Positions 28,059-30,682 of a stretch of 64,000 nt of DNA are shown here, piece after piece. A program made the position numbers and the translations under genes. The notes under the pieces were generated by a model. That model saw only the letters and a program-made list of their open reading frames with translations, was not told the DNA's origin and did no database searches. How positions within the stretch are numbered: position 1 is the first letter of the stretch; each line of letters starts with the position of its first letter. Origin of the DNA: Tenacibaculum gallaicum (GTDB lineage: Bacteria > Bacteroidota > Bacteroidia > Flavobacteriales > Flavobacteriaceae); contig NZ_QUNS01000003.1 of NCBI RefSeq assembly GCF_003387615.1, positions 62,001 through 126,000 of the forward strand. The letters are read 5' to 3'.

Positions 28059-28779
28059 GTTGTTTTATAGCTTTTTCTAAGTCTTCAGGAGTATCAATAC
28101 CAATACTTTCTACTGAAGTTTCTATCATTTTTATTTTTTTCCCTACTTCTAAGTATCGAATACATTCAATTTTTTCAGCAGCCTCTATTGGTGTCATAGC
28201 TGTATGATAAAAATCGATCAATGCTTCTTTTCTAAAGGCATAAACTCCTTTATGTTTATAGTAGTTTACAACTACCTCTTTATCTCGATGATACGGAATT
28301 ATACTTCTTGAAAAATAGATTGCAAAATCATTTGTATCGGTAATTACCTTTACATTATTAGGGTTTTGAATATCTTCTTCATTCATCATTTTTACTTTTA
28401 ACGACGCTAAATCAATTTCTTTTTGAGTATCAGATTTAAAAACGCTAATTAATTTAGATAACGAAACGGTATCAATAAAAGGTTCGTCTCCTTGTACGTT
28501 TACCACAATATCTACATCTAGATTTTCAACGGCTTCTGCAATTCTATCTGAGCCACATTCATGTTCTTTTTGGCTCATTAACACCTTACCTCCTACTTTT
28601 TCTATAGAATTATAAATTACTTCGGAATCGGTTACCACGTATACTTCATCAAACAAGTTGGCTTTTACTGCAGCCTCATAAGTTCTTACAATTACAGGTT
28701 TTCCACCTAAATCTTTCATTAATTTCCCTGGAAAACGCGATGCACTATAACGTGCAGGAATCATTGCTATTATCTTCAT
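28045..28779 (-). CDS. kdsB: 3-deoxy-manno-octulosonate cytidylyltransferase
   Basis: Activates Kdo as CMP-Kdo for the inner core of lipopolysaccharide. I start it at ATG 28779 ([19 protein letters not shown]), nine codons inside the longest frame, because this gives the family's exact N-terminus, and the upstream part would overlap the promoter. The resulting 244-residue length is normal. Motifs include [19 protein letters not shown] (CTP-binding), [11 protein letters not shown] (Mg and substrate binding) and [10 protein letters not shown] near the C-terminus. Regulation: a TATCTTTG element (28804-28811, minus strand) lies 25 bp upstream of the start. Cytosolic. Confidence 0.95.
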
Positions 28780-28885
28780 AAATAATACTAAGTGTTTACG
28801 TATCAAAGATACATATTTAAACTGCTATCATAAAAACCGATAAAACTCACATTGACAAAATTTTAACATTAATTAATTTTTGATT

Positions 28886-28918
28886 TTGTTCAATTATTAA
28901 AAACTTTTACTACTTTTG
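28886..28918 (+). promoter_or_regulatory. Bacteroidete-type promoter of the leader region
   Basis: TTG (28886-28888) and TACTTTTG (28911-28918) are spaced by 22 nt, fitting TTG-N19-23-TAnnTTTG. Transcription would begin about at 28925, immediately before the short ORF at 28926. Confidence 0.75.
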
Positions 28919-28925
28919 GGTTCTT

Positions 28926-29060
28926 ATGAAAACGCTTTTAGGCACATACACATTTATTTTCAACACAATCAATTCGATTATGTGTACAGCCCGCATGCAT
29001 AAACAGTATGTATACGTACCTAAAAGCACCCAAAGAAACAGAATTAAACATCGATTTTAA
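28926..29060 (+). CDS. Short leader ORF, 44 codons
   Basis: Begins at an ATG a few bases after the promoter and would encode MKTLLGTYTFIFNTINSI followed by a basic, arginine-rich C-terminal half. No signal peptide, no similarity recognised. It covers arms 1 and 2 of the candidate attenuator and stops 29 nt before arm 3, the usual geometry of a leader peptide gene. It has no run of one amino acid, although Leu-Leu-Gly codons fall in arm 1. It may be an accidental frame across a structured RNA. The alternative is that the RNA itself is the product. Confidence 0.35.
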   Translation: MKTLLGTYTFIFNTINSIMCTARMHKQYVYVPKSTQRNRIKHRF

Positions 29061-29111
29061 ATAATCAATTTTAATATAAACTTAACCAAGGTGCTTTTTT
29101 AAAAAAGCACC
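28934..29111 (+). promoter_or_regulatory. Candidate transcription attenuator with mutually exclusive stems
   Basis: Arm 1 is GCTTTTAGG (28934-28942). Arm 2 contains CCTAAAAGC (29019-29027) and AAAAGCACC (29022-29030). Arm 3 is GGTGCTTTTTT (29090-29100) and arm 4 is AAAAAAGCACC (29101-29111). Arms 1 and 2 pair over 9 bp, arms 2 and 3 pair over 9 bp, and arms 3 and 4 pair over 11 bp as a terminator. Pairing 2 with 3 would block the terminator and pairing 1 with 2 would restore it. Between arms 1 and 2 lies another hairpin at 28963-28983. This is a reading of the sequence; no Rfam family was recognised. Confidence 0.45.
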
Positions 29112-29118
29112 TTTTTTT
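29090..29118 (+). terminator. Intrinsic terminator inside the leader
   Basis: A perfect palindrome of 11 bp per side (29090-29111) is followed by seven T on the plus strand. It stands 30 bp before the next ATG, so it ends the leader transcript unless antiterminated. Confidence 0.85.
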
Positions 29119-29147
29119 ATTTACTAATATTTTAAATTTTAAACATT

Positions 29148-29261
29148 ATGAACACTTTTAAGTATCGAAATTCAATTAGAAAACACGTAACCTCAACTGT
29201 AATGTACTCAGTACAAAATCCATTTTACAGAGATCCTGAATTACTAATACTTAATCCTTAA
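29148..29261 (+). CDS. Short ORF of 37 codons upstream of the hotdog-like gene
   Basis: Starts MNTFKYRNSIRKHVTSTVMY and ends LLILNP, basic at the N-terminus. It lies between the leader terminator and the 117-residue gene, 7 bp before that gene's ATG, on the same strand. The tight spacing suggests a translated upstream ORF or small protein. There is no recognised family and nothing beyond spacing to prove expression. Confidence 0.4.
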   Translation: MNTFKYRNSIRKHVTSTVMYSVQNPFYRDPELLILNP

Positions 29262-29268
29262 AATTATC

Positions 29269-29622
29269 ATGAAAACACTAAACATCACATCAAACAGTCA
29301 GCCTAATCAATTCATAGTTAACAAAAAACAGGTTAGCAAAAACAAAGTGCTAAAAGCTTCAGTTTTATACGATAAAATTGAATCTAGTGCAAACACTTCT
29401 TTAGGCTTTTACCCAGATTCTTCTAATTTTAGTTTTAACAGTATCGAATTTGATCTGTTAGACAATGCCTACCTTAATGATAAACTTGTTATCAAAAACA
29501 ACATTAAAAAATTGAGTGATACTGAGGTTATTTTCAATATAACAGTATCTAAAAAAGAAGAAAAGAAACAAAATATTATTTGTACAGCTACTTTTGGCTA
29601 TACTATTAAAAAAGCGTCTTAA
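29269..29622 (+). CDS. Small protein, possibly hotdog-fold
   Basis: A 117-residue protein without signal peptide or membrane helix. The C-terminal half (LNDKLVIKNNIKKLSDTEVI, then FNITVSKKEEKK and ICTATFGYTI) has the alternating strand pattern of a hotdog thioesterase or dehydratase, in which a final strand often carries A-x-F-G-Y. The N-terminal half is not recognisable and the usual hotdog helix is unclear. The gene is downstream of the candidate attenuator and convergent with manA. Fold assignment is tentative and no function is claimed. Confidence 0.5.
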   Translation: MKTLNITSNSQPNQFIVNKKQVSKNKVLKASVLYDKIESSANTSLGFYPDSSNFSFNSIEFDLLDNAYLNDKLVIKNNIKKLSDTEVIFNITVSKKEEKKQNIICTATFGYTIKKAS

Positions 29623-29710
29623 TTATTTCTAAAAATTGATTTTACAATCAATTGAGCAATCGTTAAGTTAGTTTGGTTTGTTATAAGCTTAGGAGTTTGT
29701 TCTCTTAAGC

Positions 29711-30682
29711 TTATTTTATGTATGTTTCTAATAGCTCTGAAAGGCTTTCTGATAAAACTTCTACTTTCTCAATACATGCTGGTATCAAAATCGTTTCTCC
29801 TTTTCTTACAACTTCTTCTTGATCTTTATAGAAGAATGTTACTTCTCCTTCTACACACATGTAAATTATAAAACTATCTTTTTCAGATAAATCAATTCCT
29901 TTCTTTCCTTTTACAGGGAGTATATTCGTCGTAAAATAAGGACATGTGACTACTTGATTCGCTACATTTTCTTGTTTCACATAAGTTGTTTTATAAGAGC
30001 TTTCTGCTGAGAAGTCAATTGCTTTCAACGCTTTTTCAGTATGCAATTCTCGATAATTACCGTCAATATCTTTTCTATCCCAATCGTAAATTCGATAAGT
30101 TAAATCTGATGTCTGTTGAATTTCGGCAATTAATAAACCTGCTCCGATAGCATGCACTCTACCTGGTGGTACAAAATATACATCTCCTTTAGCCACTTTA
30201 TCAATATTTAAAATACTTAAAAGTGTTTTATTATTAAGATGTTGTATATACTCTTCTTTGCTTGAGTTTTCTTTAAATCCAATAATAATACTAGCTTCTT
30301 CGTCAGCTTGCATTACGTACCACATTTCAGTTTTTCCAAAGGATTCTTGAAGTCCTGCTAAATCATCATCAGGGTGTACCTGAATGCTTAATACCTCTTT
30401 GGCATCAATAAATTTTATTAATAACGGAAACTGCTTACCGAAAGTTTTATACACATAATCACCTACTAAATCGTACTTATACTCTTCTAAAAGACTTCGT
30501 AATGTTCTTCCTTTAAAAGCACCATTACTAACAATTGATTCATCTCCATCAACATCAGAAATCTCCCAGCTCTCTCCAATATTGGATCCGTCTGAGTTTT
30601 TATGAAGTAATTGGTTTAGTTTTTTTCCTCCCCAAATTTTTTGTTTTAAAATTGGAGTAAATCGTAGTAATTGGTTTATCAT
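29711..30682 (-). CDS. manA: Class I mannose-6-phosphate isomerase
   Basis: Interconverts mannose-6-P and fructose-6-P, feeding GDP-sugar synthesis. The 323-residue length matches the short Firmicutes/Bacteroidota form. Zinc and substrate residues lie in LSIQVHPDDDLAG, KTEMWYVMQADEEASIIIGF, GDVYFVPPGRVHAIGAGLLIAEIQQTSDLTYRIYDW (in two cupin halves). The catalytic Arg is expected in the latter segment. It is the last gene of an idi-queD-manA run on the minus strand, with gaps of 1-3 bp. Cytosolic. Confidence 0.92.
   Translation of the reverse strand: MINQLLRFTPILKQKIWGGKKLNQLLHKNSDGSNIGESWEISDVDGDESIVSNGAFKGRTLRSLLEEYKYDLVGDYVYKTFGKQFPLLIKFIDAKEVLSIQVHPDDDLAGLQESFGKTEMWYVMQADEEASIIIGFKENSSKEEYIQHLNNKTLLSILNIDKVAKGDVYFVPPGRVHAIGAGLLIAEIQQTSDLTYRIYDWDRKDIDGNYRELHTEKALKAIDFSAESSYKTTYVKQENVANQVVTCPYFTTNILPVKGKKGIDLSEKDSFIIYMCVEGEVTFFYKDQEEVVRKGETILIPACIEKVEVLSESLSELLETYIK

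Follow-up and report, generated by a model that had tools for sequence, protein, structure and literature searches.

Ribosome-mediated attenuators of the trp, his, leu and phe type, as usually understood, place a translated leader open reading frame (ORF), alternative RNA pairings and a terminator ahead of the gene they control. Leader-peptide-like attenuation has also been reported in Bacteroidota (PMC9723704 and PMC7366714), in PMC9723704 at amino-acid operons. The elements described for Flavobacterium psychrophilum (PMC9723704) resemble the locus considered here in their flavobacterial host, mechanism class and -7 promoter box. That locus lies in a 64,000-nucleotide (nt) stretch of the Tenacibaculum gallaicum genome, hereafter the window, and consists of two short ORFs (sORF1 and sORF2), separated by a terminator, in front of a gene for a small hotdog-fold protein. 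Comparison of 65 loci suggests that it is probably a two-peptide leader: a transcription attenuator controlled by the ribosome on sORF1, a leaderless or nearly leaderless leader ORF, and governing the hotdog gene. It would differ from the trp, his, leu and phe type in having no regulatory codon cluster, in a leader AUG that coincides or nearly coincides with the transcription start, in its second leader ORF and in its target, a lone hotdog gene. The general design is familiar; the second tiny peptide and the target are unusual. The element was not found in the literature searched, the supplementary tables of PMC9723704 and PMC7366714 (64 elements in Table S7 of the former) not included.

All parts of the unit lie on the plus strand, in the order promoter, sORF1, terminator, sORF2, hotdog gene and terminator-like site. 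The promoter (28885–28918) pairs a TTTG of the -33 type (28885–28888) with the -7 box TACTTTTG (TAnnTTTG, 28911–28918) at a spacing of 22; the implied 5' untranslated region (UTR) is about 3 nt, and sORF1 (44 codons) occupies 28926–29060. Four arms can be drawn. Arm 1 (28934–28952) pairs with positions 29009–29027 of arm 2 (29009–29030); the end of arm 2 pairs as an antiterminator with arm 3, AAAAGCACC at 29022–29030 matching GGTGCTTTT at 29090–29098 in 9 of 9 pairs; and arm 3 (29088–29098), the 5' arm of the terminator, pairs with arm 4 (29103–29118, the 3' arm with its T-run). The terminator stem, 29088–29098 with 29103–29113, has 11 perfect pairs and a 4-nt loop, and its T-run (29112–29118) begins with two T that belong to the stem. 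A scan of 28700–29800 found three terminator-like sites where 0.4 would be expected, and two of these are this terminator hairpin read on either strand. The promoter, the 44-codon ORF, the 9-bp pairing 2:3 and the 11-bp terminator with seven T, as claimed in the original prediction, are all present in the sequence. That account missed sORF2 (29148–29261; 37 codons, ending Asn-Pro-stop 7 nt 5' of the hotdog AUG), which lies beyond the region it covered, as does the terminator-like site (29683–29714) 3' of the hotdog gene. The hotdog gene itself (29269–29622, 117 amino acids) is the presumed target. The arrangement of this unit is more than chance.

The 65 loci comprise the window, 26 of the same genus, 28 from the rest of the family (f1) and 10 from two further families of the same order (f2 and f7); some are near-identical to each other, for example L074–L076. 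They stem from hotdog homologues, which turned up in 27 of the 146 genus genomes and 30 of the 397 family genomes (the window's genome counted in each; the weak L124 is one of the 30 but was not carried forward), and in ten of the 395 genomes searched in the other two families (3 f2, 7 f7). Weak hotdog matches of other kinds (L077–L085 and L124), a second copy in the L070 genome (L086) and named records (L087–L095) were set aside. Comparison shows the order of the parts, coding constraint on both ORFs, the pairings 2:3 and 3:4, the place of the promoter box and the lack of such a box near sORF2. The order sORF1, terminator, (sORF2), hotdog gene is kept in 65/65 loci and three families of the order. 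Every locus has a short ORF starting with ATG whose stop lies 20–34 nt 5' of a strong hairpin whose T-run has five or more T; that range is narrow partly by construction, because the script accepted 15–40 nt between stop and stem, and no locus was lost for want of such an ORF. The terminator ends 15–218 nt 5' of the hotdog AUG. A three-arm pattern drawn from the genus occurs in 14 of 142 genomes, once in each and beside the hotdog gene in 14/14, and the backwards control gave 0.

Both ORFs evolve as coding sequence under purifying selection, judging by their substitution patterns. The ratio of non-synonymous to synonymous substitution rates (dN/dS) of sORF1 is 0.35 in ten close relatives, 0.41 in the genus and 0.47 in a second clade, and that of sORF2 is 0.22, 0.48 and 0.39 in the corresponding sets; the values carry no significance test and leave out sequence pairs in which the proportion of synonymous differences (pS) is at least 0.7. 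In the ten close relatives the ratio of the corresponding proportions (pN/pS) of sORF1 is 0.39 in its own frame versus 1.28 and 0.75 in the shifted frames. By this comparison, sORF1 would qualify as the translated short leader of a ribosome-mediated attenuator. The sORF1 peptides of different clades share little sequence, as expected if it is the act of leader translation that matters.

The promoter box stands close to sORF1 in most loci and is rare near the ORFs downstream. Pairs of TTTG and -7 box like the one proposed number 9 in the window against 6.25 expected, so the window's promoter is convincing only through conservation. A TAnnTTTG/A box ends 4–9 nt 5' of the sORF1 AUG in 52/65 loci (shuffle mean 3.07), and TAnnTTTG proper falls 3–10 nt 5' of it in 36/65 (shuffle mean 0.76). 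As the -7 box of F. psychrophilum spans -12 to -5 (PMC9723704), the 5' UTR would be 0–5 nt in those 52 loci, which implies a leaderless or nearly leaderless sORF1 mRNA there. The downstream tests covered boxes of the TAnnTTTG/A type. Among the 55 loci with sORF2, a box lies 3–10 nt 5' of sORF1 in 48 and of sORF2 in none (mononucleotide-shuffle mean 4.3). Widening the interval to 3–40 nt gives 5/55 for sORF2, fewer than in mononucleotide shuffles (mean 11.8), and 3/55 for the hotdog AUG, where TAnnTTTG proper is found in 0/55; in the ten loci without sORF2, a TAnnTTTG/A box near the hotdog gene is found in 0/10. With no box that close to sORF2, the hotdog gene should depend on read-through.

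Since arm 1 comes close to a palindrome in some loci, a free duplex search sometimes mistook the start of sORF1 for arm 2, and later tests of 2:3 were confined to the last 50 nt of sORF1 against the 5' arm of the terminator. So confined, the 2:3 duplex beats dinucleotide shuffles (p<0.05) in 48 of the 65 loci (22/27 in the genus, 20/28 in the rest of f1, 2/3 in f2 and 4/7 in f7). Its mean energy is -11.6 in the genus, -10.1 in other f1, -13.2 in f2 and -11.7 in f7, against -5.6, -7.0, -5.2 and -2.7 for a mid-sORF1 control. Among 23 representatives that share less than 60% hotdog identity, 21 pass the shuffle test, six of them at p 0.028–0.048, and L071 and L073, both from f7, fail it. Over the 23, Fisher's p is about 1e-19 if they are independent, and the summed energy is -261 versus -144 (standard deviation 8.5) in shuffles. 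When the RNA is cut before arm 4, 5 nt or more of arm 3 are joined to the final part of sORF1 in the minimum-free-energy (MFE) fold of 62/65 loci. In the Tenacibaculum alignment (22 of the 27 genus loci; L137, L139, L142, L148 and L150, with longer or different sORF1, left out), 97% of 2:3 cells are paired versus 38–68% when one arm is slid.

The original prediction proposed to look for compensatory changes in the arms, and these are found between clades and in part of 1:2. Tenacibaculum has AAAAGCACC/GGUGCUUUU in arms 2 and 3, a clade of other family members GCAUCUU/AAGGUGC (6/13 pass), L121 GAGCACUUU/GAAGUGCUU and L069 UCGAAAGUAUCU/AGGUGCUUUCGA; in f7, L070 and L074–L076 keep 2:3 with different letters, GUGAAGGC/GCCUUCAC. 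In arm swaps, leaders of other groups on f7 arms reach -4.1 to -5.1 kcal/mol versus -11.3 for f7 with f7, and f7 leader regions on the arms of others reach -7.8 to -9.6. On sequence comparison, antiterminator and terminator would be mutually exclusive, less strongly so in f7 and one f1 clade.

Pairing 1:2 is probably a looser part of the plus-strand switch. In the window, the nine contiguous pairs and three A.C mismatches that had been described for it are there, within 16 of 19 positions in the register used here rather than the 17 of 20 claimed. In Tenacibaculum 72.7% of its cells are paired, with five pairs changed on both sides, one of which goes from GC to AU in seven sequences; shuffles reach that many pairs in 436/500, and a -2 slide scores higher covariation. 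For Tenacibaculum, a short stem-loop that spans the stop codon of sORF1 within the loop of 2:3 (29053–29066 in the predicted fold) is tentatively proposed. One two-sided pair, GC to AU in five sequences, speaks for it; 25% of its cells are unpaired, the window row fits a shifted register, and a +1 slide equals the changed pairs.

Put together, these parts suggest a mechanism, of which we infer the kinetics, the sign of the control and the contributions of 1:2 and sORF2. RNA polymerase would start about 0–5 nt 5' of the sORF1 AUG. With no ribosome loaded, arms 1 and 2 would pair, terminator 3:4 would form and the gene would be off. A ribosome slowed early in sORF1 would cover arm 1 and leave arm 2 free; arm 2 could then pair with arm 3 before arm 4 has been transcribed, allowing read-through into sORF2 and the hotdog gene. 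A ribosome that finishes fast would cover arm 2 or let it fall back on arm 1, and expression would again be off. Of the attenuator originally predicted, then, the translated leader, the 2:3 antiterminator and the 3:4 terminator hold up when loci are compared, and 1:2 as a third pairing does so in part.

Perhaps sORF2 adds a translational step. It ends in Pro-stop in 40 of the 55 loci that have it, as do arrest peptides of the TnaC type, and in 54/55 its stop lies 2–20 nt 5' of the hotdog AUG. Slow termination at Pro-stop would place a ribosome over the hotdog start codon; alternatively, sORF2 may hand ribosomes over to that start codon by coupling. The likeness to TnaC lies in the Pro-stop, and the system would differ from TnaC in that the sORF2 stop adjoins the start codon of the next gene.

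Several observations count against the attenuator as drawn. There is no cluster of codons for one sensed amino acid, of the trp or his type, across the 65 leaders. Pairing 2:3 beats synonymous recoding in only 24/65 loci (13 in the genus, 6 in other f1, 1 in f2 and 4 in f7), so that in many loci the encoded amino acids would by themselves account for much of the pairing; 1:2 does so in 32/65 on the plus strand and 27/65 on the minus strand. The shuffle test for 2:3 is passed by only 6/13 in the clade with SQQW-like leaders, and L071, L072 and L073 fail it in f7 (4/7 pass). Swaps among the groups outside f7 mostly pair about as well as cognates, which leaves f7 and a few divergent loci as the basis of the between-clade evidence; within Tenacibaculum (22/27 loci) no pair of 2:3 is changed on both sides, and covariation is therefore nil in that genus. 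In L070–L072 the MFE fold prefers a GGGUUG/CAACCC-type hairpin that encloses arm 2 and the sORF1 stop codon. In Tenacibaculum some 29–30 nt separate the end of arm 2 from the last nucleotide of the stop codon, too far for a ribosome positioned there to cover the arm. In thirteen of the 65 loci no box stands close to the AUG (six have one 17–30 nt upstream, seven have no such box), and not every leader is therefore leaderless or nearly so. Finally, sORF2 is missing in 10/65 loci (the seven of f7, L069, L122 and, by the ORF rule, L129), and is therefore not essential to the switch.

What the ribosome on sORF1 might sense was sought in the leader peptides. Runs of at least three equal residues occur in 7/65 leaders and are of five kinds (T, I, V, M and L). 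Against base-composition shuffles, Met is the most enriched residue of sORF1 (2.5-fold, z 11.5), followed by Lys (z 4.7) and Gln (z 4.2), and Met is 2.8-fold enriched in sORF2; the thinned sets held 47 loci for sORF1 and 40 for sORF2. Sensing of a single amino acid was considered and set aside: relative to proteins the strongest enrichment is that of Cys, Met, Gln and Arg, yet Cys is depleted relative to base-composition shuffles. The stall at Leu-Leu-Gly originally proposed did not survive comparison either, as LLG is found in only 6/65 leaders, all close relatives; Leu-Leu occurs within the first 8 codons in 19/65. The motif SQQW, which sits far 3' of arm 1, is confined to one clade, where 8 of the 13 leaders have it.

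One might go further and suppose a two-stage sensor of translation status, in which sORF1 controls transcription and the Pro-stop sORF2 controls translation of the same gene; this is a speculative extension that we think unlikely. On this equally doubtful view the hotdog protein, which would have lost the Asp that usually serves in catalysis, would be produced only under a specific kind of ribosome slowing, such as that caused by translation inhibitors or starvation. With ribosome behaviour rather than one metabolite as the signal, such a sensor would explain how peptides drift while the arms persist.

Other accounts of the locus share parts of this evidence. The strong terminator and the coding constraint on sORF1 would also suit sORF1 as an independent RNA, whether a short mRNA or a small RNA, that ends at a terminator of its own, with a separate promoter serving sORF2 and the hotdog gene outside its control; a short leader RNA could act alone. 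The absence (0/55) of a TAnnTTTG/A box, the one type tested, 3–10 nt 5' of sORF2 argues against that promoter, and a conserved antiterminator and peptides with so little sequence in common between clades argue against the independent RNA, an improbable reading on balance. Control by a riboswitch or an RNA-binding protein, with an incidental ORF, would make equal use of mutually exclusive pairings. It would leave unexplained the purifying selection on sORF1 in its own frame, and the fixed relation of the ORF to its surroundings (stop 20–34 nt before the terminator in 65/65, start beside the box in 52/65) while the letters change. Rfam, proposed earlier as a check, gave no match at gathering score anywhere in the window or to the leader in 10 loci; at E (expectation value) up to 1, those 10 loci yielded only two tRNAs at gathering score, and the f7 leaders of L070 and L074 have a sub-threshold match to AbsR25 (33.1 and 27.9 bits; gathering 47). 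We consider this reading marginally less probable still than an independent sORF1 RNA.

The original prediction also raised a minus-strand RNA or a tiny inverted-repeat element as the conserved structure. The minus strand does fold better (-74.6 kcal/mol, z -7.0, versus -49.6 kcal/mol, z -5.2, for the plus strand, 28886–29160), and in helix 1:2 A.C cells, which would pair on the minus strand, outnumber G.U cells, which would pair on the plus strand, by 42 to 18. Helix 2:3 shows the opposite, with 18 G.U and 1 A.C, and both ORFs, the promoter box and the T-run are all on the plus strand. As for a repeat element, the locus is its own only full-length match in the genome, which otherwise holds short partial matches only. 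Both forms of this idea are very improbable, and the ribosome-controlled attenuator is preferred.

The presumed target is 97% identical to the best of nine Tenacibaculum records, and its gene has a dN/dS of 0.15–0.21 (pS filter as above). A hotdog fold is predicted (AlphaFold2, mean predicted local distance difference test 84.2), with 5v10, 4zrb and 2pzh, YbgC and SP_1851 thioesterases, as the best PDB matches; by prediction, then, it would have this fold in common with the acyl-CoA thioesterases of the YbgC/4HBT group. Pfam gave no match to the window's protein at E up to 1, and scattered weak matches among 49 homologues (best E 0.0011); in NCBIfam only two YbgC-type models appeared, far under their cut-offs. 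The Asp before Ala-Gly-Gly of 5v10, which we take to be catalytic, corresponds in a weak alignment (E 0.14) to a column with Asn in 31, Ser in 12 and Asp in 4 of 49 members. With Asn or Ser there in 43/49, ordinary thioesterase activity seems doubtful. The protein ends in Ala-Ser in 31 and Ala-Cys in 14 homologues, together 45/65 (window 29614–29619).

The unit sits between two minus-strand genes, a cytidylyltransferase gene, presumably kdsB, and a phosphomannose-isomerase-like gene, manA (Pfam). Twelve hotdog-less genomes of the genus were chosen for comparison, and the three-arm pattern is absent from 12/12. In three of these (L167, L169 and L175) kdsB abuts manA (7–24 nt); in L168 they lie 322 nt apart, and in the other eight manA was not found in the flank fetched. 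We infer from these arrangements that leader and hotdog gene were gained or lost together at the kdsB-manA site. To judge from L167, L169 and L175, the two appear to form a cassette of about 0.9 kilobase that is present or absent as a whole. An f7 genome (G776) has two hotdog copies (L070 and L086) with the same sORF1. A search of plasmids gave no match at E up to 1e-3. A class-wide search found five more distant matches, by eye ordinary acyl-CoA thioesterase-like proteins with no such leader and terminator upstream, likewise judged by eye and not by script. In another family of the class, short ORFs stand upstream of acyl-CoA thioesterase-like genes in L153 (1303–1374, reverse complement) and L155 (1292–1369, reverse complement), perhaps behind a promoter box and with a Cys/Met-rich end (GCCMPVCCCC and GCCMPMSRRCMC); they are possibly a different attenuator.

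If the two-peptide attenuator is real, Bacteroidota would gain a conserved attenuator without an Rfam match, with two leader ORFs in series. The first would be leaderless or nearly leaderless in most loci, against 5.5% leaderless mRNAs in F. psychrophilum as reported in PMC9723704. As the target family has no known function, finding what slows the ribosome on sORF1 would be a direct route to learning when the hotdog protein is needed.
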